From Acidobacteriota bacterium (GTDB lineage: Bacteria > Acidobacteriota > JAAYUB01), in contig JAAYUB010000035.1 in the NCBI GenBank assembly GCA_012517875.1, positions 1-38,420 on the forward strand: a stretch of DNA of 38,420 bases. Reading direction: 5' to 3'. How positions within the stretch are numbered: the stretch's first letter is position 1; every line of letters starts with the position of its first letter. Below are positions 1,646 through 18,954 of the stretch, piece after piece. Position numbers and translations under genes: made by a program. The notes under the pieces are model-generated. The model ran no database searches and was not told the DNA's origin. It saw only the letters and a list, made by a program, of their open reading frames with translations.

Positions 1646-1748
1646 GCTGCTCTCCTGATGGTTCGGTGAATCCGCCGGCGTATCGGCTGGCCGACACCGG
1701 GACCGGTTTTTCTGTTTGTGCTTCCCGCTCATTTGCCGTCCTCGCGCC

Positions 1749-2144: not shown

Positions 2145-2184
2145 GCCGCACCTCCGCAAACGCTCCGCCCGCGTAAGAGTGTCA

Positions 2185-5100
2185 TCATCCCACCAGCTTT
2201 TCCAGCATCTCGATCTGCTTCTTCAGATCCTTGTCCAGGAATAAAGACAACTTGGCGTCGGCCAGCAGCTCTCGGATCTTCGACTTGGTGGCATAGTCCA
2301 TGTAGCCGCCGCTCCGGCGGAACAGGCACACCGCCAGGTAGAACTTGGCCGCGTCGTTGAACGGCTCGTCGCTGATGATCTTCTCCAGGATCCCCGCGGC
2401 CATGTTCCAGTCCTCCCGGTTCATAAACCCCACGGCCAGGTTCATCTCCCGCTGTTTCTCGGCCTGCTCCACCACCGCGATCACCTGGTTGAGCTGTTTG
2501 CGGATCTCCTCATTGGCCTTTCCCTTGGCATGGGTCAATCCCTCGCGGGCGATTCGCCGGGCCTCATCGTGTTCATCCTGGTTCAGTTTGCACACCGCCC
2601 GATAGAAGTAAACGATCGCGGCGTTGGGCGCCTTGGTCCGGGCGCTGTCCAGGAACCCTAAGGCCGCTTGCCAGTTCTTCTTCTCCATCTGCTTCTGGGC
2701 GTTTTGCACGTCCTCGCCGATGAGCATCACCGGAATCTGCTCGATGAATGCCTCGATCTCGCCCTTCAACTCATCATCTTCACCCTTGCGGCACTGCTTC
2801 ATGGCTTTGCGGGCTTGAGCTTCCGCTTCGGAAATGTCACCGGAGCGTCCCAGGCAGACGGCGTGGTAGAAGGTGACCTGAGCGCTGGGTGGGTTCAGCC
2901 CGGCGCCCTTGGCCAGGATCTGAGCCGCCGGCTTCCATTTTTCGTCCTTCATCAGGGGAACGGCCTTGGTCAGCAGCATCTGCGGGGCGTACTCGTCGAT
3001 CTGCGAATCGAAACCGGCGATGGTCTGGCCGAGTTCGCTATCCGGCTTCGCGGCCGTGGCGGCGCGCCGGAGCGCGTCTCTGGCTTCATCGAAATCCGTG
3101 TTGGACAGGTAGGCCTGCGCCAGCGTGAAGAGCACGAACGGATGTCCGGGGTAGTCGTCGAGCGTCTCCAGGGCCGTCAGGACAGCCTCCTCCGACTTCT
3201 GCTCCTTGAGGAATCGCTGGGCCGCCTCCAGCCGCTGCTGCACCCGGGCCACATCCATCTGCTCCGCGAAATCAGCCAGCATGGCATAATGCTCGTCATC
3301 CGGGTTACAGAGGGCCAGCGCCTGCCGCGCGGCTCTACAGGCATCGTCCCACTGCTTTTGCATGGCCATGCACTGAGCCAGCTGAAACACAGCCGGCATG
3401 AACGCAGGGGCCAGCTCGCAGGCGGTCTGGTAGCACTGGCCGGCCGCCTCGGGGCGCTGCTGTTCCATCAGTTCACGGCCTTTCGTCAACCAGGGAAACA
3501 GGGCGACCGCATACGCTTCCGCGGCCATGTCGATATTCGGATCGAAGTCGGCGATGAGCTGCATCGCCCCGGCTTTCATGAGCTCGTGGGGGAAGGCCAG
3601 CACGCCGCGGGCGACGGTGCGGTAGCGCGCCAATTCCGCCTCTGCCAGCGTTTCCTCTTGCTCCTGCAGTTGCTTGATCAGCAGCTTCAGCACATGCATC
3701 AGCATCAGATATTGATGGACCGTCTGGTCCCGGTGCAGCTTGAAGGCGTCCCGCTCGTCGTTGTAGTGGCGGCGGCTGTCGGGACCGGCCGCCGCGGCCG
3801 ACTGCCGAGCCTGGTCCAAGCGGATGCGCCGCGCCTGAACCAGTTCGGAGCGGTCGGCCGGCAGCCCGGACCATTCGGCGGCCAGCTCCAGCCACTGCCG
3901 GGTGGCGGTGACGGCGGCAGTGAGCGCCCGTTCCCGCTCGGCCTGGTTCCGGTAGTCGTCTCGCCAGATTCCGCAGCGGAACATCGGATTACGGAATTCG
4001 AGCTGACGCAGCGCCAGCAGCGGCACCGCCTCCCGCACCCAGTCCTCCGCCAGCTCCAGAAGATCCCGCCAGCGGTTCGCCGTGGGCAGCGCCTTTTGGG
4101 CCGCTTCGACGAACGCCTGATGTTTCTGGGCCAGCAGCCGGCTGAAACCATCGGCCTCAGGCGCCATTTCGCAATACAGGTTCAACACCCGGGTGAAGCG
4201 GTCCCAGTAGTGGCGCTGGCCGTCCTCGTTGTTCTGCCGAGTGTACACCAGGGCCAGGTTCTGCAGCACGGCCGGATTGTACGGATCGATCCGCTCGGCT
4301 TCGTTCCAGAGCAGTCCTGCCAGCTGAAATTTCTTGCCTTTGTAAGCCTCTTCCGCCCACCGGTCAAGTTGGACGAGATAAGCATCCTTGAGCTCCGGCC
4401 AAGCGTCGCCCTGCCGCTCCACCAGCCGCTGCCAGATGCCGACGAACTTCACCCGGTCCCCGTCGTCGCCGGCGGGAACCGTTTGCGCCAGCCGGTACGC
4501 CTTGAGCAGGTTCTCAAGCCGGTCGACGTCCCCGGCGGGCGGCTCGCCGTTGCTTTCAGACCGCTGTAGCGGGAGCTGAGCCGCGTTGTCCAGCAGCGAT
4601 TGGGGCTCGAACATGGCCACCTGCTCCAGCAACCGGTAAGCCGGATGCCCCGCCAGGGGGGCGCCGAGTTTGCGGTGGGCCAGTCCGAGGAGATCCACCG
4701 TGCGATCTGGATCGTTCGCCTCGACCGCGATCTTCAGGCATTTTTCACAGAACAGTCCCACGCTGTCCACGTCCACTTCGAGCTTGGCCAGCTCGTCCTG
4801 AACCTTGTCCCAGTCCGCGCCGCCCTTGGCCAGGCGCAAGGCCGCTTCCACCCGCTCGAATGCGGCCTGCCGCCCCAAGGCACCGTCGGCAGGCACCTTG
4901 GCCAGGTGTTCCAGCGCTTCGTTGGGTCGGCCGTCCGCGAGCAGCGCCTGCCCCAAGAGCAGACAGGCCGCCGGGGCGCCCGGCCACAGCGCGAGCGCGC
5001 GCTGGATGACCTCCGCCGCCGCCTTGGGTTGGCCACTCTCAGTCAGCGTGGCGCCCTGGGCCAGCCGGTACTCCAGCTCGAACGGATCCAGCTCGACGGC

Positions 5101-5622
5101 GCGGCCGAGCAACCGCACGCGCTCGTAAGGCGAATCGACTTGTCGAGCCCGTCGGCAGAGCTCCGTCGCCAGTTGCAGCCGCCGCTCCGGATCGGCCGTG
5201 GCCGCGTGCACCTCCGCCTCCAGCCGCGATGCGCCCGCCGCACATCTGGCGCCATGGCCGGACTTGCGGGTGCGCCGCGGCGTCGGCACACCGGCCGCGT
5301 CGTGATCCGGCAGCGCCGTATCCAGCAGCGAGAGCGGCTCACCGCATGGCCCCGGTACGCGGCGCGTCACGTCCGGATCGGGGATGCGTCGAGCGCCGTC
5401 CAGCTCGTAACAGAACTGGAAGATCTTGTTCCGGGGCAACTCGAGACTGGTGGCCCACGTGCGGCTGTCGCCGCGGGCCGCGTGCTGTTCCAGCGGATGC
5501 GCCGCAGGATCCCATCCGTTGAAGTCACCCAGCAGGTGGACCGTGCACACGTCATCCGGCAGCTTCAATCGGAAGTCCACCACGACCTGATCACTCGCTG
5601 ATGCGGCACCCATCTCGATCAT
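2185..5622 (-). CDS. Large TPR protein with N-terminal CBM48/AMPK-type glycogen-binding domain
   Basis: This 1145-residue protein has no signal peptide and is probably cytoplasmic. Residues about 12-105 look like the E-set glycogen-binding domain of AMPK-beta and branching enzymes: VHLLGDFNGWD, then a W followed by LELPRNKIFQFCYELDG and a DPD turn. Conserved aromatic positions suggest carbohydrate or an equivalent ligand may bind. Residues about 125-1145 are helical TPR-type repeats, including AAEVIQRALALWPGAPAACL, VFQLAQCMAMQKQWDDACRA and several GFLDSARTKAPNAAIVYFYR-like units. Such arrays are protein-binding scaffolds. It sits between the NHL gene (35 bp upstream) and the J-like gene (40 bp downstream), suggesting it recruits clients or partners for the Hsp70 set. 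An in-frame ATG at 5613 is an alternative start; neither has a strong ribosome site. The domain call is good; the role is unknown. Confidence 0.88.
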   Translation of the reverse strand: MIEMGAASASDQVVVDFRLKLPDDVCTVHLLGDFNGWDPAAHPLEQHAARGDSRTWATSLELPRNKIFQFCYELDGARRIPDPDVTRRVPGPCGEPLSLLDTALPDHDAAGVPTPRRTRKSGHGARCAAGASRLEAEVHAATADPERRLQLATELCRRARQVDSPYERVRLLGRAVELDPFELEYRLAQGATLTESGQPKAAAEVIQRALALWPGAPAACLLLGQALLADGRPNEALEHLAKVPADGALGRQAAFERVEAALRLAKGGADWDKVQDELAKLEVDVDSVGLFCEKCLKIAVEANDPDRTVDLLGLAHRKLGAPLAGHPAYRLLEQVAMFEPQSLLDNAAQLPLQRSESNGEPPAGDVDRLENLLKAYRLAQTVPAGDDGDRVKFVGIWQRLVERQGDAWPELKDAYLVQLDRWAEEAYKGKKFQLAGLLWNEAERIDPYNPAVLQNLALVYTRQNNEDGQRHYWDRFTRVLNLYCEMAPEADGFSRLLAQKHQAFVEAAQKALPTANRWRDLLELAEDWVREAVPLLALRQLEFRNPMFRCGIWRDDYRNQAERERALTAAVTATRQWLELAAEWSGLPADRSELVQARRIRLDQARQSAAAAGPDSRRHYNDERDAFKLHRDQTVHQYLMLMHVLKLLIKQLQEQEETLAEAELARYRTVARGVLAFPHELMKAGAMQLIADFDPNIDMAAEAYAVALFPWLTKGRELMEQQRPEAAGQCYQTACELAPAFMPAVFQLAQCMAMQKQWDDACRAARQALALCNPDDEHYAMLADFAEQMDVARVQQRLEAAQRFLKEQKSEEAVLTALETLDDYPGHPFVLFTLAQAYLSNTDFDEARDALRRAATAAKPDSELGQTIAGFDSQIDEYAPQMLLTKAVPLMKDEKWKPAAQILAKGAGLNPPSAQVTFYHAVCLGRSGDISEAEAQARKAMKQCRKGEDDELKGEIEAFIEQIPVMLIGEDVQNAQKQMEKKNWQAALGFLDSARTKAPNAAIVYFYRAVCKLNQDEHDEARRIAREGLTHAKGKANEEIRKQLNQVIAVVEQAEKQREMNLAVGFMNREDWNMAAGILEKIISDEPFNDAAKFYLAVCLFRRSGGYMDYATKSKIRELLADAKLSLFLDKDLKKQIEMLEKLVG

Positions 5623-5657
5623 GCGTCACCCCGCTGCCTCTCCATTGGCTGAACCGC

Positions 5658-6806
5658 TCACCGCACTTCGAACTTCAGCACCAGATTGGCGCTCCGCAGC
5701 GCCACCAGCAGGCGGCCGGCGTCGTCCACGGCGAAATCCTCCACCAGCCCCGCGTCGGCAGGCATCACCACCTGATAAACGAACTGGCCGTCGGCGTTGA
5801 ATTTCTGGACTCGGCCATGCTTGGAATCCGCGACGAAGATGTCACCGGCGGCGTCCACGCGCACCACCCGCGGATAATACAGCTGGCCGGCGTCCGCTCC
5901 TTCCTCGCCGAACACGAGCGCCACCGAGCCGTCGTGGCCGAATTTCTGAATCCGGTGGTTGTTGGTGTCGGCGACATAGATATTCCCCAACGCGTCGGCG
6001 CAGGCGCCCTTGGGGGCATCCAGCTCGCCGGGTTCCTCACCGGCCTGCAGCCCGCCTAAGTCGGGATCGGGCCGGTTGATTCCCAGCACGAGCAGGCAGC
6101 GTCCCTGCGGATCCCACCGCAGCACTCGGTTGTTCCCGGAGTCGGCGACGATCAGGTCGCCGTTCGGCGCTATGGCGATGCCCTGCGGATGATCCAACTG
6201 CTGGTCGGCGGTCCCGGGTCCGCCCAGCACCGCAAGACAACGGCCATCGGGCGAAAATCGCTTGAGCCGGCTGGCGCCCATATCCACGATCCAGCAGGCT
6301 CCTTCCCGGTCCGCCACCACGCCGGCCGGGGCGTCCAGCGCATGGTCGCCGGCGCCCGTCTCGAACGGTCCGGCGCTGCCGGCCGGCTCGCCGGCGGCGG
6401 TGAACCGGAGCAGCTGCGCCCGGCCGCCCGCGTCGTAGAAATGGATCAGCCAGAATCCGCCGTCGGGCAGCGGCGCCAGGCCGAACGGCATCCGCAGCGT
6501 CGCCTTCCCCTCGCCCGGCTGGCCGATCGCGAAGAGCGGCTGGTAGGGCCGGCCGCTCCGCGCCGCACCGGCGGTGAAGTCCAGCTTGCCGCCCAGTTCG
6601 AGCTTGCCCACATCCAGCAGCGTGCCCAGGTCGCGCCCGGACAGCCCGCCGCCGAACGTCGGCACGCCCGGCAGGGGCATCTTCAGCTCGGGCAGCTTGA
6701 AGGCGGGCACGCCCGGATCGCCACCGGCCACCGCGCCGCAGTTGGCGCAGGTCAGCTTGCCGCCCAGGGGGTGTCCGCACTTGAGACATACCGGTTCAGC
6801 GCCCAT
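5658..6806 (-). CDS. Zinc-ribbon plus NHL-repeat beta-propeller protein
   Basis: This 382-residue protein has no signal peptide. The N terminus holds two CxxC knuckles (CLKCG at about 8-12 and CANCG at about 20-24), a small zinc ribbon. A linker of about 60 residues follows. From about residue 90 there are at least five NHL repeats, each with the pattern GIAIAPNGDLIVADSGNNRV, ACADALGNIYVADTNNHRIQ or VDAAGDIFVADSKHGRVQ. NHL propellers usually bind proteins or RNA and have no catalytic activity. GGAGG lies about eight bases upstream of the ATG. The gene is 56 bp after the TIR gene and 35 bp before the TPR gene. It is likely an adaptor or sensor in this module, and the second beta-propeller protein of the operon. 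Confidence 0.88.
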   Translation of the reverse strand: MGAEPVCLKCGHPLGGKLTCANCGAVAGGDPGVPAFKLPELKMPLPGVPTFGGGLSGRDLGTLLDVGKLELGGKLDFTAGAARSGRPYQPLFAIGQPGEGKATLRMPFGLAPLPDGGFWLIHFYDAGGRAQLLRFTAAGEPAGSAGPFETGAGDHALDAPAGVVADREGACWIVDMGASRLKRFSPDGRCLAVLGGPGTADQQLDHPQGIAIAPNGDLIVADSGNNRVLRWDPQGRCLLVLGINRPDPDLGGLQAGEEPGELDAPKGACADALGNIYVADTNNHRIQKFGHDGSVALVFGEEGADAGQLYYPRVVRVDAAGDIFVADSKHGRVQKFNADGQFVYQVVMPADAGLVEDFAVDDAGRLLVALRSANLVLKFEVR

Positions 6807-6862
6807 GTCCTCCGCCTCCCGCCATATCGTTTGCCGCTTCCTCCGCCGGCGCCGTGTCCGGC

Positions 6863-9800
6863 CTACTCACCCGCGTCGAGCAGCAGCCGGGAGCCGTCTT
6901 CGTATTCAAGATCCAGCGTGTCCTGATAGCGCACCCGCACGGTCACGGGCAGGGCGCCCGACGCCCGTGGCTCCAGTGACACGGCGGCGGTGGCCCCCGT
7001 CCCGCCGGCCGGCAATTCCTTTGGCACGCCGTCCAGGCGGACATCCACCGGGCCGTCCACATCGAGCCGGATGGCGCGGGCCTCGCGGCTCCCTTCGTTG
7101 GCGAGCCGCAGCTCCGCCCGGGTGAAGGTGCCCTTCCGCAAGGCCCCCAGGGGCTTGAGCGATACGCTCAGCCGCGGCCGGGCCAGCCGGCCCAGCGTCA
7201 GGGCACGTTCGCAACCGCAGATCACCGCCCGGCTGTCCGGGAACGCGGCCAGCGCGTGGATGGGCCCCGCGGCCGGATCGCCGCCGGTGAACGAAATTCG
7301 GTTGGCCTGGTTGTCCACGAAACAGAGCCTCCCGTCTGATGCGGCGACCAGCAGAAAGCGTCCGTCGGGATTCATGAGCAGTCCCGCGGTGGCAGCCAGG
7401 GCGCCCAGCGCGTGGTCCCGCCGCAGAGTCATCTTGTCGGCCAGCGCGTAGACCAGCACATGTCCGTCGCCGGTGGCGATCGCCAGCCGCCGGCCGTCGC
7501 CGGACAGGCTCATGGCCGGCAGCGCCTGCTCGAAGGTCATTTCTTCCAGCACCCGTTGGTCGTCGATCCGGAGCCGTGTCAGCGTCCGATCGCGCCGCAG
7601 CAACAGCAGTTCGTCACCGGCCGCCGCAAACTGCACGGCGGTGACTGCGGCCGGCAGCTCCCGCAACCAGACGACCTGGCCGGCGAGATCCACCAGCGCC
7701 AGGTGGCCGGAGTAGGTGGCCGCCGCGACGTGCCCTTCGGATGCGGCCACGCAGGCGATGCCGTCGGCCAGACGCTGGCTCCACCGTGTTCGACCGGTCC
7801 GATCCACGCTGCGCAGCAGGCCCTCCCACGTCCCGGCGAACAGCTGTTCGCCGGAAGGCACCGCCGCCAGGGCGGCGATGGGGCTGTCGAGATGGACCTG
7901 CCAGATCAGCTCCTTTTCGGTGAAGGCGGCAAGCTGGCCGTCCCACCCGGCCAGCAGGGCCAGCCCGCGCGCGCCCAGCACCCGGTAGGGTCGGCCACCC
8001 AGCTGCTCCGAATAGATCAACCGGCCGTCCGCGTCATGGACCTGCGCCTCGCCGTCCGGCCCGGCGCTGAGCACCCGGATTGGATCGCCGAACACCGCCA
8101 CTCCGGTCACGGGCGACGCCGTCTCTTTCCGCCAGACCACCTCGGTCGGACTTGCGGCCTCTTCGGCGGCGGGGGGCGGTGGAATATCGTGCGTCTCGCT
8201 GATCTGTTGGCGGCTTTCCAACTCCTGACACACCCCGGCCTCCAGCCGACCGGTCTGCTCGGGACTCAGGTCCAGTTCCGCCGCCAGCGCGTCGAGTCCG
8301 GCCCGCCCGGCTGGAATTCCACCCGCGGCAGTCGCGGCCTCCCGAACCGCATCGGCATAGCGCTCCGTGAGCCGGCGCACCCGGGCTTCGAGCGCCGCCA
8401 GCCGTTCGGCGGATGGTTGCAGGGCGTCCGGAATCTCCCGCAGGGCGGCGCGCTGCTCGGCGGTGAGCTCGTGCGTCTGGCTGAGCAGCTCGCGGAGACG
8501 GGACAAGATGGGTCGTTCCAACTCGTCCCGCACCTGCTGCTCCATCTCCGCGGCGCACTCCGCCGGCAGCTTCAGCATCTTGGCCAGAAACTCCAGCTTC
8601 TCACGCTCGGCCGCGGAAATCTCCCCATCGGCCAGCACCTCACGGAGCGCCGCAAGGTAAGGGGCGATGCCCGGCGACGGAGGCGCTTCCTCGCGATTGG
8701 CGATGAAATGCTCCAGCGACCGCCGCTCATCAGCCGACAGCTCGTCGCTGTGCCCGCAGGCCGGGCTCCCCCACACGACCGCTGTTCTTCCGCCGCCGTC
8801 CAAGACGTCCACCGTGGGTCGGTCGCAGGCACGGCACCGGCGCACCGTCATCAGCGGGAACAGGTCCAGCCAGGGCTCCGGCCCCCCGGAACCGGGTCGG
8901 CACAGATAGACGTGGTTGGCCGTCAGTGCCTTGCCGGTCCGGATCGTCTCTGTGGCCGGAGCGATCTCTCGGCCCATCGCCCCCAGTGCGACAATCCGGT
9001 CGGCGCCCCGCCCCGCACCGCTCTCCGGCGCCACGCCGAGGAGCGGAAACTGCAGGAGGCACTCCAGCTCGGCGAGCGCCGCATCGAGCGCTTCCGCCAG
9101 CACCGTCCCCCGCTGCCGGTATTCCTCGACCGGGAGCACGGCGCCGTCGGTACCCCAGCCTTGGGGGTGGACGCGGTATTTGGCCAGCAGCTCGAACAGG
9201 TCGCCGCCTGAAAACGGGGGCAGCTTCAAACCCGCCGGGCCGAGCCAACCCTGCAGCTTGCCGGCGGCGCGGCCCATGGCGTCATCCCGGTGTTTCCGGT
9301 CGAAGAAGAATGCGTAGAGCGACTGGATGCAGGCGTCATCAGAATCCGGATAGAGGCCCAACGCAGTGTGGGCCAGCGCCACCCACGTGTCGGGCTGCGG
9401 CCGGGCCAGCTGGCTGATCGCTCCCTCGGTGAACGTGTCCGGCGCCGTGCCCATTCGGCAGCGTGCCCGGTAGTGCGCCGCCGCCACCACCGCCACATAG
9501 CGGATCACGGCGGCGCCGATGTCGCGCAGCCCCTCATGGAGTTGGAAAGCCTGCCCCAGTTCCGCCCCGGCGATCATGCGGCGGGCGTACACAGCCGCCA
9601 GAGGGAAAGGGTAATGGTCGGCGATGCGGCTGAAGGTCTCGCGAGCCTTGGGGAGCAGTCCGTTGGCGCTCATCCCCTCCACCAGGCGCGGGACGAGTTG
9701 CGGCACCGTCGCCGGCGTGGCCGGCACGCCCACCGCCCCGCCCATGGCCAGCGCCCATTCCGGTTGCAGCCGCTTGAACTCGTCCCAGCGGATGTTGTTG

Positions 9801-10072
9801 AGCAGAATGGGGATGAACTGCTTGCGCGACTCGAGGCCGCGGACCACCTCGATGTTCACCTGGTTCGACTTCTTCACCGATTCCGGCGAGATGAGCAGCA
9901 GGATGGCCTGCGCCTGTTCGATGGCCTTCAGCACCTGGGTCAGGTAGGGGATGGCGGGCAGGCTGTTGCGGGTGTAGCACCAGGTGGTGTACCCGGCCTG
10001 CTCCAGGCCGGCGGCGATGTCTACGGCCACCTGAGCGTCTTCCTCGACATAGCTGACAAATACGTCACTCAT
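6863..10072 (-). CDS. TIR domain / TerB-like / beta-propeller multidomain protein
   Basis: This 1069-residue protein opens with a TIR domain (about residues 1-135). Box 1 is DVFVSYVEED, and SPESVKKSNQVNIEVV places a glutamate at residue 75, where NAD-cleaving TIRs carry their catalytic Glu. Residues about 150-450 form an unrecognised domain beginning YPFPLAAVYARR and ending in a possible metal site (CRAC at 413-416, another Cys at 439). Residues about 465-520 (LADGEISAAEREKLEFLA) look TerB-like, and 573-620 look like a second such helical unit. Residues about 645-960 form a WD40/PQQ-like propeller, and the last 100 residues an Ig-like beta sandwich. ATG at 10072 starts exactly at the TIR domain; a TTG at 10102 is a weaker alternative. 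It is promoter-proximal in its operon, diverging from the AAA-RyR gene. It is probably an effector or sensor; NADase activity is inferred. Confidence 0.9.
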   Translation of the reverse strand: MSDVFVSYVEEDAQVAVDIAAGLEQAGYTTWCYTRNSLPAIPYLTQVLKAIEQAQAILLLISPESVKKSNQVNIEVVRGLESRKQFIPILLNNIRWDEFKRLQPEWALAMGGAVGVPATPATVPQLVPRLVEGMSANGLLPKARETFSRIADHYPFPLAAVYARRMIAGAELGQAFQLHEGLRDIGAAVIRYVAVVAAAHYRARCRMGTAPDTFTEGAISQLARPQPDTWVALAHTALGLYPDSDDACIQSLYAFFFDRKHRDDAMGRAAGKLQGWLGPAGLKLPPFSGGDLFELLAKYRVHPQGWGTDGAVLPVEEYRQRGTVLAEALDAALAELECLLQFPLLGVAPESGAGRGADRIVALGAMGREIAPATETIRTGKALTANHVYLCRPGSGGPEPWLDLFPLMTVRRCRACDRPTVDVLDGGGRTAVVWGSPACGHSDELSADERRSLEHFIANREEAPPSPGIAPYLAALREVLADGEISAAEREKLEFLAKMLKLPAECAAEMEQQVRDELERPILSRLRELLSQTHELTAEQRAALREIPDALQPSAERLAALEARVRRLTERYADAVREAATAAGGIPAGRAGLDALAAELDLSPEQTGRLEAGVCQELESRQQISETHDIPPPPAAEEAASPTEVVWRKETASPVTGVAVFGDPIRVLSAGPDGEAQVHDADGRLIYSEQLGGRPYRVLGARGLALLAGWDGQLAAFTEKELIWQVHLDSPIAALAAVPSGEQLFAGTWEGLLRSVDRTGRTRWSQRLADGIACVAASEGHVAAATYSGHLALVDLAGQVVWLRELPAAVTAVQFAAAGDELLLLRRDRTLTRLRIDDQRVLEEMTFEQALPAMSLSGDGRRLAIATGDGHVLVYALADKMTLRRDHALGALAATAGLLMNPDGRFLLVAASDGRLCFVDNQANRISFTGGDPAAGPIHALAAFPDSRAVICGCERALTLGRLARPRLSVSLKPLGALRKGTFTRAELRLANEGSREARAIRLDVDGPVDVRLDGVPKELPAGGTGATAAVSLEPRASGALPVTVRVRYQDTLDLEYEDGSRLLLDAGE

Positions 10073-10342: not shown

Positions 10343-13042
10343 ATGCCGAAGACCGTCGTGATCGCCGGAGACGTGATGTGGGATCACAACCTGGTGCTCC
10401 ACCCCACCGCGCCGCGGCGCTTCGCCGAGGGACTGCCGCACACCACCATGAAGCGGTGGCGCGGCGGGGCCTGGTACCTGCAGGAACTCGTCCAGATGGC
10501 CTGCGCCGACCTGAACCCCGCGGTCACCGGCATGCCCAAAACAGACAAGGCCCTGCAGAGCTTCACCATTTGGTCGCTGCACCCCGAGGTGGAGAAGAGC
10601 CGGAAGCAGGTCTGGCGGATCCGCCAGCTCCTGGGCTGCCAGATGCCCGAGGAGGGGCCGGAAATCCAACTGCCGCCGAACACCCCGGCGGATCCGGACC
10701 TGGTGGTGCTGGACGATCTCGGCCTGGGCTTCCGGAATGCCGAGGACCGATGGCCGGCGGCCATCCGGGAGGGCGGCGCCCCGCGGTCCATCATCCTGAA
10801 GACCGGCACGCCCCTGGCGCAGGGGTCCCTCTGGAACCACCTGATCGCGCACCACGCCGACCGGCTGACGGTGGTGCTGAGCGTCGGCGCTTTGCGGGCG
10901 CGCCGGGCCATGATCCCGCAGGCCCTGTCCTGGGACCGCTCCATCGAGGCGATGGTCCAGGAGTTCGAGAACGGCCCGTCGGCGTTCGATCTGGCCCGCT
11001 GCCGACGGGTAGTGGTGCATTTCGACGCCGAAGGCGCAGCCTGTTTCACGCGCCTGCCGCTGCATCACCGCCCCCACGAACCGGGCAAACCAGCACGGGC
11101 TCTTCTCCCTCAGGCCCGACTGGAGCGGTTCCTCTACCATCCCGAGCACCTCGAGGGCGCCTGGGAGGCGAAACACCCGGGCCTGATTTTCGGCAACGCT
11201 TCGATTCTGTCCGCCGCCCTGGCCCGCCACGAGCTCGACCCGGATACGTATCCGCTCTTCATCGCCGTGGGACGCGCGTTGGCAGCCATCATGGTCAGCC
11301 ACGAATGCGGCTTCGGCCCGAAGGACAAATTCGGTCCCGAAACGGCGAACAAGCGGTTGCGGGATGTGCTCCACCCCGCGGTGGACAAGAGCGAGCCGGC
11401 CGACGCCTATTTCAGCACCATCGACCACTGTCTGCTGGACGGCGTGGCAACCAGCGGCCGAGCCGATTCGCGCAGCAAACCTAACGCGGCCACCCCCTCC
11501 GCCTATCGTTCCGATCTCCTTCAGGATCTGACAGGACCCAGCCTGGAGTACATCGCGGCCAAGGCGGTGGAAGTGGTGCGGCGCGGCCCGGCGGCCGCGC
11601 TCCAGGCCGCTCCCAAGGCCGTCTATGGCAAGTTCTTCACCGTGGACCGGCAGGAGATCGAGCGGATCAATGCCGTGCGCAACCTGATCGTGGCCTACCA
11701 GAACAACGCCGAAGACCGGCGCCCGCTGTCGCTGGCCGTATTCGGGCCGCCGGGATCGGGCAAATCGTTCGCCATCAAGCAGCTCGTGGCCGAGCTGTTC
11801 GGTGACGACAAGGGGAGTTACGAGTTCAACCTGTCCCAGATGGAGCAGCCGCGGGGGTTGCATCTGGCGCTGCAGCAGGTGCGCGACGCGGCCATCCGCG
11901 GCCGGATCCCCCTGGTGTTCTGGGATGAGTTCGACACGGGTGAACTCCGCTGGCTGAAGGATTTTCTCGCCCCCATGCAGGACACCCAGTTCACTGCCGA
12001 TGGCGTGATTTATCCCTTGGGCAAAGCCATCTTCGTCTTTGCCGGCGGCACCTGCCCCTGCTTCGAGGTGTTCGATCGGACCCGCGCCGGAGGCGTGGTC
12101 GAGGAGGCGTTCCGCGCCGTCAAGGGACCCGATTTCGTCAGCCGGTTGCGCGGCTTCGTGAACATCAAGGGCCCCAATCCCATCTCGGCGGATTGCCAGA
12201 CCGCCGGCGGCCGCGCGGAGTTCAGGCCGGAGGACGATCCCGCCTTCCTGATCCGCCGGGCCATCATCCTGCGTTCCACCCTGGACCGCTTCTATCCGCA
12301 GCTCATCGATCCCGACACGAAGGAGGCGGCCATCAGCGGCAGCGTGCTGCGGGCGTTCCTCACTACGAAGGAGTTCCTGCACGGCGCCCGCTCCCTCGAA
12401 TCGGTGGTCCACATGAGCAACCTCAACGGCGCCCGGTTTTTCGGCGTGGCGGAGTTGCCGCCGCCTGACCTGCTGAATTTGCACGTGACGAAAGATTTCC
12501 AGGAGATCGTGGCCCGTGCCCAGCTCGAGGCGCCCATTTTCGAGGCCCACGCCGAAGCGTGCCATCAAGCCTGGTTCAAGATGAAGGCCGCCGAGGGTTG
12601 GTGCTTCGGCTCGTCGAGGAACGACCGCGCAAAGCTCCATCCCTGGCTGGTGCCGTATGACCAGTTGCCCGAAGCCGTCAAGGAAATGAACCGGGGCACC
12701 GCCCGACTGACCCTGGCCAAGCTCGCGGATCTGGGATATGTCATCCGCCGTCTGCGCCCGGCGGACGCGGCGGCCGTTACCCCCTACACATTCAGCGCGG
12801 ACGAGAAGAAAATGCTCGTCTGCCTGGAGCATGACATCTGGCTGCGCGACAAGATGCTGCGCGGCTACGCCTGGGCGCCCGAGACCTGCGAGCCGCTGCG
12901 GCTCCACCGCGACATCGCCGCGTTCCAGGACGTCCCGGCCGCAGACCAGGAACTCGACTGGGTCATCACCGAGACGATCCCGGTCGTGCTTCACAAGCAC
13001 GGATTCATTCTCGAGCGGAAGACCGGGGAGCCGCCGCAATGA
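10343..13042 (+). CDS. AAA-type ATPase with tandem C-terminal RyR repeats
   Basis: This 899-residue protein has three parts. Residues 1-240 resemble a Rossmann or ribokinase-like fold (VVIAGDVMWDHN at the start, VVLDDLGLGF near 121-130, RRVVVHFDAEGA near 221-232); this is inferred from pattern only. A central P-loop ATPase has Walker A GPPGSGKS (468-475) and Walker B LVFWDEFD (524-531). Residues 734-803 are a clear ryanodine-receptor (RyR) repeat, with HQAWFKMKAAEGW, a KLHPWLVPYDQLPEAVKEMN core and LADLGYVIR. Residues about 826-890 look like a second, more divergent RyR copy (EHDIWLRDKMLRGYAW, then a LHRDIAAFQDVP core). Bacterial RyR domains are associated with nucleotide-signalling and conflict systems. 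GGAGG precedes the ATG at 10343. It overlaps the next gene by four bases, so the two are translationally coupled. Confidence 0.9.
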   Translation: MPKTVVIAGDVMWDHNLVLHPTAPRRFAEGLPHTTMKRWRGGAWYLQELVQMACADLNPAVTGMPKTDKALQSFTIWSLHPEVEKSRKQVWRIRQLLGCQMPEEGPEIQLPPNTPADPDLVVLDDLGLGFRNAEDRWPAAIREGGAPRSIILKTGTPLAQGSLWNHLIAHHADRLTVVLSVGALRARRAMIPQALSWDRSIEAMVQEFENGPSAFDLARCRRVVVHFDAEGAACFTRLPLHHRPHEPGKPARALLPQARLERFLYHPEHLEGAWEAKHPGLIFGNASILSAALARHELDPDTYPLFIAVGRALAAIMVSHECGFGPKDKFGPETANKRLRDVLHPAVDKSEPADAYFSTIDHCLLDGVATSGRADSRSKPNAATPSAYRSDLLQDLTGPSLEYIAAKAVEVVRRGPAAALQAAPKAVYGKFFTVDRQEIERINAVRNLIVAYQNNAEDRRPLSLAVFGPPGSGKSFAIKQLVAELFGDDKGSYEFNLSQMEQPRGLHLALQQVRDAAIRGRIPLVFWDEFDTGELRWLKDFLAPMQDTQFTADGVIYPLGKAIFVFAGGTCPCFEVFDRTRAGGVVEEAFRAVKGPDFVSRLRGFVNIKGPNPISADCQTAGGRAEFRPEDDPAFLIRRAIILRSTLDRFYPQLIDPDTKEAAISGSVLRAFLTTKEFLHGARSLESVVHMSNLNGARFFGVAELPPPDLLNLHVTKDFQEIVARAQLEAPIFEAHAEACHQAWFKMKAAEGWCFGSSRNDRAKLHPWLVPYDQLPEAVKEMNRGTARLTLAKLADLGYVIRRLRPADAAAVTPYTFSADEKKMLVCLEHDIWLRDKMLRGYAWAPETCEPLRLHRDIAAFQDVPAADQELDWVITETIPVVLHKHGFILERKTGEPPQ

Positions 13043-14052
13043 CGCCTCCCTCCGGCTCACCGGCCGCTGCGCCTGCGCTCCGCATCGGTGTCACGGGCCA
13101 CCGGCGGCTCGCCGATCCAGGCGCGGTGGCCGCGGTCGTTCGGAGCGCCCTTCATCGCGAGATCCCCCGGGCGGCCGGTTTATCGGCCTTGCCGGCCGTC
13201 CGGATTCTGTCCTGTCTGGCTGAAGGGGCCGACCGGCTGGTGGCGCAGGTGATGCTGGAGGCGCCGACAGCGACACTCAGCGTCGTGCTGCCGCTGGCGC
13301 CCGCAGAATATTCGGCCGCGTTCGAAGGGCCGTCCTCGCGGCAGGAGTTCGACGAGTTGCTCCGCCAGGATCCGGATCCAGTCTGTCTGCACCCGCGCCC
13401 GCTGGCCGAGGAGTTCCCCGGGCTCGACGCGGCGTCGGCCCGCCAGATCGCCTACCGCAACGCCGGCCGCCACGTGGTCGACCGGTGCGATGTGCTCATC
13501 GCCGTCTGGGACGGCAAGCCGGCCCGCGGCCCAGGCGGCACGGCCGAGATCGTGACCTACGCGCTGGAGCGGGGGCGGCCCGTCGTTCACATCCGCCCCG
13601 ACGCGCCGGGAGCCGTCACCGTGCTCGCCGGCCGCCTGGCCGAAACGTCCGCCGCGGCCACATCCGCACCGCCCGCCGGAGCCGCGGTCACCGGCGGCGC
13701 CCACCCCGTCCCGCGGCGGGTACTGTTCCTGTGCAGCCAGAACAAGCTGCGCAGCCCCACCGCCGAGCGAGTCTTCCGCGGCACACCGGGTCTGGATGTC
13801 CGCTCGGCGGGACTCGACGCCGACGCCGTGGTGCCGCTCACGCGGGAACTTCTCGAGTGGGCCGACCTGGTGCTGGTTATGGAAAAACGCCACCGCAACC
13901 TCATCCAGAAGCGGTTCAAGGACCTATACCGGACCCGGCGGATCGTCTGCCTCCACATCCCCGACGAGTTCGAATTCATGGACGAGGGCCTCGTCCGGCT
14001 GCTGCGCGAACGCGCCGGCCCGCTCATCAACCCGCCGCCCGGCCACTTCTAG
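13039..14052 (+). CDS. SLOG-like domain fused to low-molecular-weight protein tyrosine phosphatase domain
   Basis: This 337-residue fusion starts with ATG overlapping the previous TGA. Residues about 14-188 form a Rossmannoid domain of the SLOG/LOG type: IGVTGHRRL at 16-24, LAEGADRLVAQ at 60-70, VVDRCDVLIAVWDGKPA at 146-162, and GGTAEIVTYALERGRPV at 166-182. SLOG domains bind or process nucleotides and nucleotide-derived signals. After a Pro/Ala-rich linker (about 190-225), residues 226-330 form an LMW-PTP-like domain with the C-x5-R loop CSQNKLRS (C232, R238) and an aspartate-rich IPDEFEFMDEG end (306-317). The catalytic Cys and Arg are present, so phosphatase or related activity is plausible. 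The coupling to the RyR-ATPase gene suggests one complex or pathway. The substrate is unknown. Confidence 0.88.
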   Translation: MTPPSGSPAAAPALRIGVTGHRRLADPGAVAAVVRSALHREIPRAAGLSALPAVRILSCLAEGADRLVAQVMLEAPTATLSVVLPLAPAEYSAAFEGPSSRQEFDELLRQDPDPVCLHPRPLAEEFPGLDAASARQIAYRNAGRHVVDRCDVLIAVWDGKPARGPGGTAEIVTYALERGRPVVHIRPDAPGAVTVLAGRLAETSAAATSAPPAGAAVTGGAHPVPRRVLFLCSQNKLRSPTAERVFRGTPGLDVRSAGLDADAVVPLTRELLEWADLVLVMEKRHRNLIQKRFKDLYRTRRIVCLHIPDEFEFMDEGLVRLLRERAGPLINPPPGHF

Positions 14053-14224: not shown

Positions 14225-15247
14225 ATGATTCAGTTCACGCGCGTCACGCTGGTTGTGTTGGTTTGTCTGTTGACCGGTACGGCGGCCTGGGCGGAAGTCC
14301 AGGGCGACTGGACGACCTCGGCCACCCGATTGCGGGGCAAGAACGGCCAGCGGTTCACCTTCGTCTTTCCGGCCGGCGGTACGCTGGGCAGCGTCTGGGG
14401 CACCGATCTGTACACCGACGACTCGTCCATCGCCACCGCGGCGGTTCATGCCGGCCTGATCACCGCGGCCAAGGGCGGCACGGTGACCATCGAGATCCGC
14501 CCCGGCGCCGCCACCTACGCGGGGAGCACTCGGAACGGCGTCACCAGTTCCGGCTTCGGCTCCTTCGGCGGCAGCTTCGTCTTCGTCACCGGCGCGGCCG
14601 GCGGAAAGGCAAAGAGCACATTGGGGGACTGGCACACCTCCGCCACCTCGCTGCGGGGCATGAACGGACAGCGCTTCACGTATTTCTTCCCCGCCAACGG
14701 CACTCTCGGCAGTGTCTGGGGCACCGACCTGTACACCGACGACTCGTCCATCGCCACCGCGGCGGTCCATGCGGGATTGATCACCGCCGAAAAGGGCGGC
14801 ACAGTGACATTCGAGATCCGCGCCGGCGCCTCCGCCTACAAGGGGAGCACCCGGAACGGCGTGACCAGCTCCGACTACGGCGCCTATGACGGCAGCTTTG
14901 CCTTCGTGTCCGGTTCGGCCCAGGAGAGCAAGGAGCTGATCAGTGACTGGAAGACCAGCGCCAGCGCACTGCGGGGCAAGCACGGCCAGCGCTACACGTT
15001 CGTATTTCCTGCCGGCGGCACGCTGGGCAGCGTCTGGGGCACCGACTTGTACACCGACGACTCGTCCATCGCCACGGCCGCCGTCCACGCCGGCCTGATC
15101 ACCGCCGCCAAGGGCGGCACGGTGACCATCGAGATTCGCCCCGGCGCCGCCTCCTACACCGGCAGCACCCGAAACGGCGTGAAGAGCTCCAACTACGGCT
15201 CCTTCGGCGGCAGCTTCGTCTTCATCGTGCCGCCCCCCAAAAAGTAG
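14225..15247 (+). CDS. Exported protein of three tandem LCCL domains
   Basis: This 340-residue protein has a clear Sec signal peptide (hydrophobic VTLVVLVCLLTGTAAWA, cleavage near residue 23). Mature residues 27-121, 134-228 and 240-334 are three copies of an LCCL-like domain. Each contains GSVWGTDLYTDDSSIATAAV, HAGLITA, a GGTVT strand, a GSTRNGV turn, and an SFVF or SFAF strand. LCCL domains are extracellular modules thought to bind lipid or polysaccharide. The usual cysteines are missing: the typical SSICTAAVHAG reads SSIATAAVHAG, and there is no Cys in the mature protein. An ideal GGAGG lies about five bases before the ATG. It is downstream of the SLOG gene but 172 bp away, so it is probably an independent unit. 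Confidence 0.9.
   Translation: MIQFTRVTLVVLVCLLTGTAAWAEVQGDWTTSATRLRGKNGQRFTFVFPAGGTLGSVWGTDLYTDDSSIATAAVHAGLITAAKGGTVTIEIRPGAATYAGSTRNGVTSSGFGSFGGSFVFVTGAAGGKAKSTLGDWHTSATSLRGMNGQRFTYFFPANGTLGSVWGTDLYTDDSSIATAAVHAGLITAEKGGTVTFEIRAGASAYKGSTRNGVTSSDYGAYDGSFAFVSGSAQESKELISDWKTSASALRGKHGQRYTFVFPAGGTLGSVWGTDLYTDDSSIATAAVHAGLITAAKGGTVTIEIRPGAASYTGSTRNGVKSSNYGSFGGSFVFIVPPPKK
14303..15226 (+). repeat. Three tandem in-gene repeats encoding the LCCL units
   Basis: The three LCCL units repeat with periods of about 321 and 318 bp. The segment encoding GSVWGTDLYTDDSSIATAAV is nearly identical in DNA in all three copies, with mostly third-position differences. Linkers between units diverge. This suggests fairly recent internal duplication or gene conversion. 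Confidence 0.85.
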
Positions 15248-15891
15248 TTCCGACCCCGTAGGCCGCATTCACCGAACGCGGCCTACGGCAGGATTCTTCA
15301 ATACCTCGCGGCCTGGCGGTCGAACCGCGCATTCGATGAACGCGCGCCCGTTAAATTCGTCCGACCTTGCGGCCTCCGGCCGCGAGTGGCCGCGGCAGGA
15401 TTCTGCCGCGCAAGCAGCGGAGGAGCGCAGTCCGGACCGGCAGGTCCGGGTGCGCGAAGTATCCGGAATATCCGTCAGCTCCGCAGGAGCGGGAGAAAGT
15501 GAGGTCCCAGCAGTCCCATAGCTGAATGTTCTTTGCTTGCCACATATTGAATCCATTGCCACGATCCCGTCACCGCTGCGCGGCCCCGCCCGCAACTCCA
15601 TAATCCAAACGCCCGGGCCTGACGGCCCGGGCAATTTGCTGCGGCCATTGGCGCAGCCGGGCCGCGGGATCAACCAACAATCCCATGGATCTTGCGGAGT
15701 CATCGGGCCGCGTCCGGCGGACGCCACCGACGTCTGCCCGGCGAACTAACCGTTGACACGCTGCTCCCCTCCCTCGAAAATGGATCCGCTGCGGCTACCG
15801 GTACGCCCGCCAGAACCCAGCCCATCGCCGCCGCCACCTGAGGGTGGGGCCACCGGTCAGCGGCCGAATTTCATCCGTTGAGGATTGTGCC
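15248..15891. other. 644-bp intergenic region rich in perfect hairpins
   Basis: I find no convincing gene between the LCCL gene and mobB. The stretch contains several perfect stem-loops: 15256-15288 (11-bp arms); 15369-15383 (6-bp, 3-base loop); 15391-15410 (8-bp arms CGCGGCAG/CTGCCGCG, loop GATT); 15432-15449 (7-bp arms CCGGACC/GGTCCGG, loop GGCA); and the palindrome GCCCGGGC repeated as an inverted pair at 15611-15618 and 15625-15632. The words GGCAGGATTCT and GCATTC-NNN-GAACGCG each occur twice. This resembles a REP-type intergenic repeat or a structured RNA. The small ORFs here lack ribosome sites and look like chance. Confidence 0.55.
15256..15288. terminator. Perfect 11-bp hairpin after the LCCL gene
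   Basis: CCGTAGGCCGC (15256-15266) pairs perfectly with GCGGCCTACGG (15278-15288) around an 11-base loop, nine bases after the stop codon. It is a plausible transcription-ending or 3'-stabilising hairpin. There is no strong T-run, only a weak ATTCTTC, so intrinsic termination is uncertain. It may instead belong to the hairpin family of the spacer that follows. Confidence 0.5.
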
Positions 15892-16557
15892 ATGATCCCC
15901 ATTCTCTCCGTAGTCGGCAAGTCCGACTCAGGCAAGACCACCCTGCTTGAAAAGCTCATTCCGGAACTCACCCGGCGCGGCTGGCGCGTGGCAACGGTGA
16001 AGCACGATTCCCACGGCTTCGAAGTGGACCACCCGGGCAAGGACAGCTACCGGCACAAGCAAGCCGGCGCCCACACCGCCATCATTGCCTCGCCGTGGCG
16101 GCTGGCGCTGATCCGGGACGTGGAGCGGGATCTGACGCTGGACGAGATCCGCGACCGGTTCATCCAGGACGTGGACCTGGTCCTGTCCGAAGGATACAAG
16201 AGCGACCGCCAGCCCAAGATCGAGGTGTTCCGGCCCGAGCAGCATGGTGAGCCCATCTGCAAGCGGAGCGACGGCCTGGTGGCCCTGGTCAGCGACACCG
16301 ACGTCGACCTCGGCGTCCCCCGTTTCGGACTCGACGACGCCGCCGGACTGGCCGGGTTCATCGAGACGCGTTTCCTGGAGCAGCCGCGGCCCGGCCACGT
16401 CAGCGTGCGTGTGGACGGGCGGGCGGTGCCCATGAAATCATTCGTCCGTGATTTCATCGCCGGCGCTGTCCGCGGAATGCTGGGCGCACTGAAGGATTGC
16501 AACTCGAAGGGGACCATCGACGTGCATGTGGAGCGGGAGAAGGAGGAGGGTGAATAG
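15892..16557 (+). CDS. mobB: Molybdopterin-guanine dinucleotide biosynthesis adaptor MobB
   Basis: MobB is a GTP-binding accessory protein that helps attach GMP to molybdopterin when the bis-MGD cofactor of DMSO-reductase-family enzymes is made. The 221-residue protein starts MIPILSVVGKSDSGKTTLLE, giving P-loop GKSDSGKTT. VATVKHDSHGFEVDHPGKDS, the family signature, follows. VDLVLSEGYKSDRQPKIEVF is the MobB Walker B-region motif. A C-terminal extension of about 45 residues (VRVDGRAVPMKSFVRDFIAG onward) is seen in some anaerobe MobB proteins. The ATG at 15892 is preceded by TTGAGG; a GTG at 15844 is less likely. The stop codon lies inside an 8-bp tandem repeat. The molybdoenzyme genes start 345 bp downstream, a strong functional link. 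Confidence 0.93.
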   Translation: MIPILSVVGKSDSGKTTLLEKLIPELTRRGWRVATVKHDSHGFEVDHPGKDSYRHKQAGAHTAIIASPWRLALIRDVERDLTLDEIRDRFIQDVDLVLSEGYKSDRQPKIEVFRPEQHGEPICKRSDGLVALVSDTDVDLGVPRFGLDDAAGLAGFIETRFLEQPRPGHVSVRVDGRAVPMKSFVRDFIAGAVRGMLGALKDCNSKGTIDVHVEREKEEGE

Positions 16558-16605
16558 GTGAATAGGTGAATAGGTGAATAGGTGAATAGGTGAATAGGTG
16601 AATAG
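16550..16605 (+). repeat. Seven perfect copies of the 8-bp repeat GTGAATAG
   Basis: GTGAATAG is repeated seven times head to tail without mismatch (16550-16605), followed by a partial GTGAG. The first copy supplies the mobB stop codon TAG (16555-16557). The unit is not a multiple of three, and it carries a stop in some frames, so it cannot extend the protein much. It is a microsatellite-like tract prone to slippage. Confidence 0.95.
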
Positions 16606-16902
16606 GTGAGTGGGAATGAGGTGGATTTCATTGATCATTTTTTATTGATCAATGGTCATTGGGCGTTTCGGATTGTCGTGTCTGTTGGTTATTTATCGTT
16701 GCATATCTTTCATTGGCTATTTGGAAGCGATAAAAATTTGCCCGGGATGGGGGATCTGGAACTTCTGGGAGCCGGAGGCTGGGACTCAGCACACAGAACC
16801 AAGAACCGAGGTCCCAAGTCCGAATTCCGAGGTCCGATGATCGGTAACGAGCCTCGAGTCTCGATGACGATTACGAGTACGATCACGAGCACGAGCTGAA
16901 AG
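16606..16902. other. AT-rich, low-complexity spacer before the molybdoenzyme operon
   Basis: There is no convincing gene. Bases 16606-16740 are strikingly AT-rich for this genome and contain a perfect hairpin: CATTGATCA (16629-16637) pairs with TGATCAATG (16646-16654) around an eight-base T-rich loop. Bases 16790-16895 are low-complexity, with repeated words such as GAGGTCC, TCCGA and a run of degenerate GAYNACGA-type units. Promoters for the downstream operon probably lie here, but no clear -35/-10 pair stands out. Confidence 0.5.
16629..16654. other. Perfect 9-bp hairpin with T-rich loop
   Basis: The arms CATTGATCA and TGATCAATG flank TTTTTTAT. It lies 72 bp after the mobB stop. It could be an operator (the arm core TGATCA is itself palindromic) or a weak terminator; the T-run is in the loop rather than after the stem, which argues against classic intrinsic termination. 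Confidence 0.45.
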
Positions 16903-18954
16903 ATGGCGATTTACACGACGGCGTGCCCGCGGAACTGCTACAGCACCTGCAGCCTAAGGGTGGAGGTGCTGGATGGGCGCATCCGCCGCATCGAGCCCCA
17001 CCCCGGCAACCGGGCCACCGCTGACGGCGTCTGCCTCAAGGGGCTGAGCTACCTGGAGCGGGTGTACTCGCCGGACCGCATTCTGACGCCGCTGCGCCGC
17101 ACCGCCACCGGCGCCTTCGTGCCCATCCCGTGGGACGACGCGCTGGATCTCATCACGGACAAGCTGCAGCGTCTCCACGATGACCCCGGCCCCCAGAGCG
17201 TCCTCTACTACACCGGCAGCGGCACCAAGGGCCTGCTCAACGGCGTCGGCATGAGCTTCTGGCGTCGCTGGGGCGGCTGCACCACCACCTACGGCGATCT
17301 GTGCTGGCCCGCTGGTCTCGAGGCGACGCGGCTCACCCTGGGCGAGGTGAAGCACAATGCGCCGTGGGACCTGGCCAACGCGCGCCTCATCGTCATGTGG
17401 GGGAAGAACACCGCCGAGACCAACGTCCACCAGATGGCCCATGTGGACGCGGCGCTGGTCGCCGGCGCGCGCCTCGTGGTCATCGACCCCCGCCGCACCG
17501 AGACCGCCGAGCGGGCCGAGCTGCTCATCCAGCCGCGCCCCGGCACCGACGGGGCCCTGGCCCTGGGGGTCGCCCACCTGCTCATCCGCAACGGCTGGAT
17601 CGACCGCCCCTTCATCGACGCCCACGTGCTCGGCTTCGACGCCTTCGCCGAGCGGGCCGCCCTGTGGCCGCCCGAGCGTGCGGCCGCGACGGCCGAGGTG
17701 CCCGTGGCCGCCGTCCACCGCCTGGCGGAGCTCATGGGCACGGTCCGTCCCGTGACGGTGTCGCCGGGCTTCGGCATGCAGCGCTACACCAACAGCGGCC
17801 AGACCATGCGGGCCATGCTGGCGCTGCTGGCCATCACCGGCCAGATCGGCCGCCCCGGCGCCGGCTGGATGTACGCCAACCTGCAGACCCAGATCTTCAG
17901 CCCGGTGAAGGATCCGCTCGACTTCTATCCCCCCGAGCAGCCCGACGGCGTGGTGCGGGTGAGCGTATCCACAGCACGTCTGGGCCCGGACATGCTGGCC
18001 CAGAACGATCCGCCGCTCCGGATGGCCTGGGTGGAACGCGGCAATCCCATCCCCCAGAACCCCGAGACCCACTCGGTGCTGAAGGCGTTCCGGGCCCTGG
18101 AGTTCCGGGTGGTGGTGGAGGAGTTTCTCACCGACACCGCCCGCGAGGCCGACCTGGTGCTGCCGGCCAAGACGCTGTTCGAGCAAACCGACGTCATCGG
18201 CGCCTACTGGCATCCGTACATTCAGCTCCGCCAGAAGCTCATCGAACCGCCGGGCGAGGTGAAGCCGGAGACGGAAGTTTATCGCCTGCTCGCCCATCGC
18301 CTCGGCTTCCCCGCCGAGGCGATCGCGGCGGAGATCCCCGGCCCCGCCGACGCCGACATCGAGCGATGGCTGGCGGGGCGTCTGGCGCCCTTCCCGGGGC
18401 TGACCCTGGAACGGCTGCGCGAGGGGCCGGTGCCGGCGCCCGGCACCGAAGAGGTGGCCTATGCCGATGGCCGTTTCGCGACGCCGTCGGGGCGGATCGA
18501 GCTTTACTCCGAGGAGGCACGCACCCGCTGGGGGCTGGATCCGCTCCCCGACCACACCGAGCCGGCGGAGTCGCCCCGGCGCGCCGGATCCGAGCGGTCG
18601 CGCTATCCGCTCCAGTTCCTCACGCCCAACACCAAAAACCGAATTCACTCCCAGTTCAACAACCTGAACGTGATCCGTCAGTTCGGCGACCGGCCTCAGG
18701 CGTGGCTCAACCCCGCGGACGCCCGCGTCCGCGGCGTGGCCGACGGCGACCGGGTGCGCATCTTCAACGACCGCGGCGAGCTGCGGATCGAGGCCCGGCT
18801 CGACTTCAGCCTCCGTGCCGGCTGCGTGGTGGTGACCAACGGCTGGTGGCTGTCCCAGGGGGGCGCGGTGAATCTCACCTCCCGCGCCCGCGAGACAGAC
18901 ATGGGCTTCGGCGCCGCCTTCCACGACAACCTGGTGGAGGTGGAGCGGGCATGA
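16903..18954 (+). CDS. DMSO-reductase-family molybdopterin oxidoreductase, catalytic subunit
   Basis: This 683-residue bis-MGD enzyme subunit carries an N-terminal [4Fe-4S] site (C8, C12, C16, C44, in CPRNCYSTCSL and DGVCLKG). The likely molybdenum ligand is C134 in YGDLCWPAGLEA. Cofactor-domain motifs follow: LIVMWGKNTAETNVHQM, VVIDPRRTETAERAEL, and a C-terminal TPNTKNRIHSQFNN and LNPADARVRGVADGDRVRIF domain. The family reduces S- or N-oxides, polysulfide, thiosulfate or similar compounds, or oxidises formate; the substrate cannot be read from the sequence. It begins straight at the Fe-S motif with no twin-arginine signal, so the subunit should face the cytoplasm. Its stop overlaps the start of the fused DmsBC-like subunit (ATGA). 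The ribosome site is weak. mobB upstream makes the required cofactor form. Confidence 0.93.
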   Translation: MAIYTTACPRNCYSTCSLRVEVLDGRIRRIEPHPGNRATADGVCLKGLSYLERVYSPDRILTPLRRTATGAFVPIPWDDALDLITDKLQRLHDDPGPQSVLYYTGSGTKGLLNGVGMSFWRRWGGCTTTYGDLCWPAGLEATRLTLGEVKHNAPWDLANARLIVMWGKNTAETNVHQMAHVDAALVAGARLVVIDPRRTETAERAELLIQPRPGTDGALALGVAHLLIRNGWIDRPFIDAHVLGFDAFAERAALWPPERAAATAEVPVAAVHRLAELMGTVRPVTVSPGFGMQRYTNSGQTMRAMLALLAITGQIGRPGAGWMYANLQTQIFSPVKDPLDFYPPEQPDGVVRVSVSTARLGPDMLAQNDPPLRMAWVERGNPIPQNPETHSVLKAFRALEFRVVVEEFLTDTAREADLVLPAKTLFEQTDVIGAYWHPYIQLRQKLIEPPGEVKPETEVYRLLAHRLGFPAEAIAAEIPGPADADIERWLAGRLAPFPGLTLERLREGPVPAPGTEEVAYADGRFATPSGRIELYSEEARTRWGLDPLPDHTEPAESPRRAGSERSRYPLQFLTPNTKNRIHSQFNNLNVIRQFGDRPQAWLNPADARVRGVADGDRVRIFNDRGELRIEARLDFSLRAGCVVVTNGWWLSQGGAVNLTSRARETDMGFGAAFHDNLVEVERA

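Follow-up and report, generated by a model that had tools for sequence, protein, structure and literature searches.

Tandem ryanodine receptor (RyR) repeats (PF02026) are familiar from the Repeat12 and Repeat34 units of animal ryanodine receptors, and in 2026 phages were reported to destroy or soak up 2′/3′ cyclic ADP-ribose (cADPR) with RyR domains (PMC13232231). One phage RyR-domain protein, RyDEP, is a 2′/3′cADPR glycosidase with ligand and catalytic residues H75, W78, H100 and D117 (PMC13232231). Nucleotide-centred conflict systems built of SLOG and SLATT parts were predicted by Burroughs and Aravind (2015), as cited in PMC7159879 and PMC9503650. Neither RyR domains in bacteria nor systems of the SLOG/TIR/SLATT kind are new in themselves. 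Here we analysed a 38,420-nucleotide stretch of an Acidobacteriota bacterium (assembly GCA_012517875.1, contig JAAYUB010000035.1; the whole stretch is called the window) with a gene whose 899-amino-acid product joins a ribokinase-fold domain, an AAA+ ATPase and two tandem RyR repeats. From its anatomy and context we propose, with confidence about evenly balanced, that this RyR ATPase may be the receptor for an ADP-ribose-type signal in a conflict system based on TIR or other NADases, probably with an anti-phage role.

The RyR unit shares with the animal repeats its fold, tandem arrangement and ligand-site His and Trp positions, but here it sits on an AAA+ ATPase, at about 20% identity, and a repeat tree suggests independent duplication. 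It has the four ligand and catalytic residues of RyDEP, at identical spacing, in its second repeat; whereas RyDEP is a phage homodimer acting against Thoeris (PMC13232231), the window's unit is a chromosomal tandem beside a TIR gene. Thoeris itself, made of the TIR protein ThsB and a SIR2-SLOG or TM-macro ThsA, is similar in having a TIR gene, a separate putative receptor for an ADP-ribose signal and SLOG-like domains, but the present family combines its AAA+ ATPase with either an RCK channel or a SLATT pore. We do not regard the window's system as Thoeris because ThsA was not found: there was no SIR2 or macro match among the locus genes scanned, and PADLOC gave no ThsA match. The SLOG/SLATT conflict systems resemble it in that SLOG, TIR and SLATT parts share neighbourhoods, and the oomycete PKDRR channels (PMC4820453) resemble the partner channel described below in carrying tandem RyR repeats near the ion-channel C terminus, but are PKD-type and eukaryotic. 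We found no description of the RyR ATPase or of the RyR-RCK channel in the related literature, though Burroughs 2015 and Yirmiya 2025 (on systematic TIR systems) may hold one, and NCBIfam and PADLOC scans gave the ATPase no name.

Two RyR repeats at the C terminus

The gene begins at an ATG at 10343, preceded by an AGGAGG-like ribosome-binding site, and its stop codon ends at 13042, in agreement with the coordinates and residue numbering of an earlier sequence-only reading; two further species of the genus carry an open reading frame of identical type (93–94% identity). PF02026 matched the whole protein with an E-value of 1.8e-19 (70–77 bits against a gathering cut-off of 27.4) and exceeded the cut-off in 41/41 ATPase family members scanned, with repeat 1 spanning slightly more than the residues 734–803 assigned to it earlier. 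The second repeat, previously placed at about residues 826–890, gave no match when excised and scanned by itself, being too diverged, and Pfam reported two RyR stretches when both repeats were submitted jointly. Profiles of the two repeats across the family aligned to each other in hhalign with a probability of 99.5 (E 6e-23), the window's own repeats matched in BLASTP (E 2e-5, 19% identity), and repeat 1 as a query also matched the C-terminal repeat of several homologues (E 1e-5 to 5e-8).

An AlphaFold2 model of the last 185 residues (715–899; predicted local distance difference test, pLDDT, 88; predicted template-modelling score, pTM, 0.77) contains the helical unit twice. Its best Protein Data Bank (PDB) matches in Foldseek were the Bt-hRyR12 chimera 6uhi and human RyR3 Repeat12, with alignments to Repeat12 structures of 169–195 columns over the full length of the model (TM-score ~0.7), so that both repeats, including the last 80 residues for which structure prediction had been named the deciding check, are predicted to have the RyR fold. 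A family profile search recovered each of the four repeats in RyR3 and in RyR2, and a search of a viral structure library matched only phage RyR-domain proteins. We conclude that residues ~729–806 are a RyR domain and ~818–893 a second, diverged one. The tandem RyR and P-loop ATPase architecture first read from the sequence is thereby borne out, the ATPase being of AAA+ type with intact Walker motifs.

Ligand-site residues differ between the repeats

In repeat 2, H830, W833, H855 and D872 stand at the same spacing (+3, +25, +42) as H75, W78, H100 and D117 of RyDEP, and were kept in 41, 40, 33 and 39 of 41 family members, respectively; the pair E829–H830 was invariant in all 41. Repeat 1 keeps H741 (39/41) and an aromatic residue at 744 (40/41), and has N783 at the position of the RyDEP catalytic Asp, which was Asn in 39/41 members. 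The RyDEP-type set is complete in repeat 2 and fails in repeat 1 at the Asp, and this Asp/Asn asymmetry is a family trait that bears on the choice between sensing and hydrolysis. Repeat 2 of the partner channel had His in 14/14 sequences, Trp in 12 and Phe in 2, and Asn in place of Asp in 9/14.

The well-kept Asp and His of ATPase repeat 2, set beside the mostly Asn-bearing channel, would also suit a signal-ending enzyme, in which repeat 2 hydrolyses cADPR isomers, the ATPase is an off-switch and the channel is the receptor. However, eight other tested RyDEP homologues failed to degrade signals though highly conserved (PMC13232231), so that the residues alone are no proof of catalysis, and we consider this reading quite improbable. 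Binding of a messenger is proposed here because of the RyDEP-type residues together with the RyR fold, and the earlier idea of a nucleotide ligand gains likely support from the conserved ligand residues and the TIR and SLOG company of the gene.

TIR and DUF4062 genes are enriched next to the ATPase

The divergent neighbour of the ATPase gene, 271 bp away, encodes a TIR domain and a WD40/PQQ beta-propeller; it is one of two TIR_2 genes in the window's genome and keeps the Glu at the conserved TIR position, within QVNIE. In a set of 30 ATPase-bearing genomes, TIR_2 lay within 10 kb of the ATPase in 14 (0.49 expected, P = 3e-16) and DUF4062, recently described as a TIR-like NADase (PMC13174449), in 9 (0.15 expected, P = 1e-13). 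Because these P-values treat the genomes as independent and gene placement as random, the effect size, about 30- to 60-fold above genome background, is the safer statement. One or the other was present in 19/30 genomes, against 0.64 expected. The order ATPase-RyR-RyR, SLOG, two-transmembrane (2TM) RCK channel that also carries a tandem RyR (2TM-RCK-RyR-RyR) and TIR recurred in loci L019, L022 and L035, the last a compact operon from Anaerolineae, and a SLOG-SLATT protein substituted for the channel in three loci; in L018 the partner gene is a SLATT fused to SLOG (SLATT_1 50.6 bits, NCBIfam cut-off 41), and SLATT does not occur in the window. At L033:1219-6564, a 1781-amino-acid protein with TIR, DUF4062, STAND-type ATPase and WD40 parts, a layout reminiscent of human TEP1/NWD1, adjoins the RyR channel and the ATPase.

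RyR and SLOG-like domains interchange on the ATPase

Scanning the genomes of 84,980 species yielded 67 related loci, mostly metagenome-assembled, in Acidobacteria, Planctomycetes, Chloroflexi, Syntrophomonadaceae, Actinobacteria and one methanogen. The C terminus of the ATPase is modular, with tandem RyR in the majority, a SLOG-like domain in the RyR position in Syntrophomonas-type members, or both together (L033, L050), and the gene directly downstream in the window encodes a SLOG-like domain homologous to the one that replaces RyR. SLOG-ended ATPases of loci L052–L069 (Syntrophomonadaceae and others) are conserved in several Syntrophomonas genomes; a TIR neighbour was not found in most of these loci, with one at L056.

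A channel with the same tandem unit

Within a sample of 60 genomes, comprising the window's genome and relatives, the ATPase was present in five, all of which (5/5) had a RyR channel-type gene, and the other 55 gave no match to the ATPase protein whatsoever. The distribution of the ATPase is patchy, since the sister genus is without it. In the window's genus the ATPase and channel genes are found on different contigs; in two distant genomes they share a contig, one copy there has a stop codon, and the channel label depends only on the length of the frame and a RyR match. The window's genome has two RyR genes, the ATPase and a channel on contig 53 with TrkA_N (E 3e-21) and two RyR stretches. 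No canonical K+ filter, TVGYG, was found in 14/14 partner channels, and K+ selectivity is therefore not claimed. On contig 53 (L070) the channel gene (8178-9995) faces, in convergent orientation, an operon that resembles MoxR-vWA systems: it holds two genes for AAA/MoxR-like ATPases (1498-3774 and 3784-4797) and one for what is, as read from its sequence, a probable vWA-type protein (4831-6951).

In a FastTree phylogeny of single repeats (~75 residues, moderate support), the first repeats of the ATPase and the channel grouped together, as did their second repeats. Because repeats group by position across the two proteins, the bacterial tandem looks like one ancestral module common to both. Animal RyR repeats clustered with stand-alone bacterial RyR proteins, the nearest bacterial units; these are encoded by genes for ~100 residues directly upstream of the ATPase (L006:3083-3391 and L011:2201-2602). 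The parallel with animal tandems drawn by the sequence-only reading holds for fold and layout, but the tandem state may have arisen by separate duplications in bacteria and in animals, and its homology is not supported by the tree.

A tandem type common to ATPase and channel might instead reflect docking, with the repeats acting mainly as protein-interaction modules that bring the ATPase onto the channel by like-domain pairing; RyDEP dimerises via its helices (PMC13232231), and RyR domains in RyR1 are described as protein-protein contact sites (PMC4820453). The most conserved positions, however, are those of the ligand pocket, foremost E829–H830, and we think it very unlikely that docking is their main role. 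More tentatively, and with more doubt than conviction, bacterial tandem RyR units might be receptors for ADP-ribose-type immune messengers that gate the 2TM-RCK-RyR-RyR channel, which the AAA+ ATPase would partner or regulate.

Proposed signalling and points against it

In the arrangement we favour, with the ATPase as receptor, the propeller-bearing TIR protein (elsewhere DUF4062) would, once triggered, turn NAD+ into an ADP-ribose-type messenger, as its enzyme family, conserved Glu and linkage suggest. Within the tandem RyR, repeat 2 would do most of the binding of this messenger, and the diverged repeat 1 would be its partner. The same class of ligand may be read by the SLOG-like domains, whether encoded by the next gene or carried by relatives where the window's ATPase has RyR. 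Binding would switch the AAA+ ring, which would control the response, and the co-occurring RyR-RCK channel or SLATT pore is the likely membrane effector, which could depolarise or arrest the cell.

Several observations weigh against this proposal. Given that the Repeat12 unit of animal RyR binds ATP or ADP, the window's protein could simply recognise an ordinary adenine nucleotide; PADLOC is without a model for the RyR ATPase or the RyR channel; no TIR or DUF4062 gene lay within 10 kb in 11/30 ATPase genomes, and the SLOG-type loci of Syntrophomonas likewise yielded no such neighbour; and the RyR channel of the window's genome is on a different contig from the ATPase. Matches of the SLOG-like domain, scanned in 30 members, to four SLOG Pfam families (YAcAr, best E 8.9e-5; DprA; YpsA; cpYpsA) were sub-threshold and confined to a minority of the 30, and its family profile had no match in the PDB. 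The independence and random placement assumed in the adjacency tests belong here as well.

Some of these points would fit a different role, in which the tandem RyR senses energy status through ATP/ADP, a housekeeping ion or stress response is formed by the ATPase together with the RCK channel, and the TIR neighbours come from shared defence islands and not from a pathway in common. The nearest solved structures in Foldseek are RyR Repeat12 with AMP-PCP or ADP, nucleotide sensing is common in RCK/TrkA proteins (PMC6987127), and the same 11 genomes are without a nearby NADase gene. Such a sensor appears unlikely given the enrichment of TIR and DUF4062, the interchange on one ATPase of SLOG and RyR, each of them a module type reported to bind cADPR, and the absence of the ATPase from the sister genus.

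N-terminal domain, AAA+ core and remaining features

The N-terminal domain, residues 1–440, was modelled by AlphaFold2 with a pLDDT of 87.6, and Foldseek matched it to PfkB/ribokinase kinases (E 2.5e-8, target-normalised TM-score ~0.5); these results replace the Rossmann-like N terminus read earlier, which we rejected, and a PDB profile search with this region gave nothing useful. GDxxxD and GG motifs are near-invariant across the family, and the GxGD catalytic Asp position, matched by motif and not by structure superposition, holds Ser/Thr or another residue in 54/54 members, which suggests a pseudokinase acting as sensor or scaffold. Pfam AAA models match the middle region sub-threshold only; ATP hydrolysis by the core is expected because Walker A, Walker B and PDFxSRL, with the candidate Arg finger R601, are near-invariant.

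Table 1 Features of the RyR ATPase gene and its neighbours in the window.
Feature	Coordinates	Strand	Basis or remark
TIR domain + WD40/PQQ beta-propeller gene	6863..10072	-	TIR_2 E 8.9e-14; divergent
899-residue protein gene: ribokinase-fold domain, AAA+ ATPase, tandem RyR	10343..13042	+	Open reading frame call, Pfam
Ribokinase/PfkB-like fold, residues 1–440	10343..11662	+	AlphaFold2, Foldseek
Walker A GPPGSGKS, residues 468–475	11744..11767	+	Near-invariant in family
Walker B LVFWDEFD, residues 524–531	11912..11935	+	Near-invariant in family
RyR repeat 1, residues 729–806 (H741, W744, H766, N783)	12527..12760	+	PF02026
RyR repeat 2, residues 818–893 (H830, W833, H855, D872)	12794..13021	+	Profiles, BLASTP, model, Foldseek
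SLOG-like domain fused to low-molecular-weight phosphatase-like domain	13039..14052	+	Start overlaps ATPase stop (ATGA)
SLOG-like domain	13072..13617	+	Sub-threshold matches, four SLOG Pfam families
Low-molecular-weight protein tyrosine phosphatase (LMW-PTP)-like domain, CSQNKLRS (C-x5-R-S) motif	13720..14049	+	PF01451 24.4 bits, cut-off 23.2

Further along the forward strand of the window, the product of 14225-15247 begins with a stretch resembling a signal peptide and contains three LCCL domains, a type of extracellular domain known chiefly from eukaryotes. A MobB-like molybdenum cofactor gene and then a molybdopterin oxidoreductase follow at 15844-18954 (+), and, as read from their sequences, resemble ordinary metabolism.

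Significance

The biology of bacterial RyR domains is largely undescribed in the related literature. Most of the interest here lies in the operon context of TIR, SLOG-like and RyR-bearing RCK channel genes, which the earlier reading had overlooked. The swap of RyR and SLOG-like domains on one ATPase, together with TIR NADases and a RyR channel, makes it possible to test concretely whether host RyR domains are receptors for NAD-derived signals, and the family bears on the question whether animal ryanodine receptors respond directly to cADPR. Regulation of these receptors by cADPR has long been debated, and a messenger-gated RyR channel, if true, would be its prokaryotic precedent.
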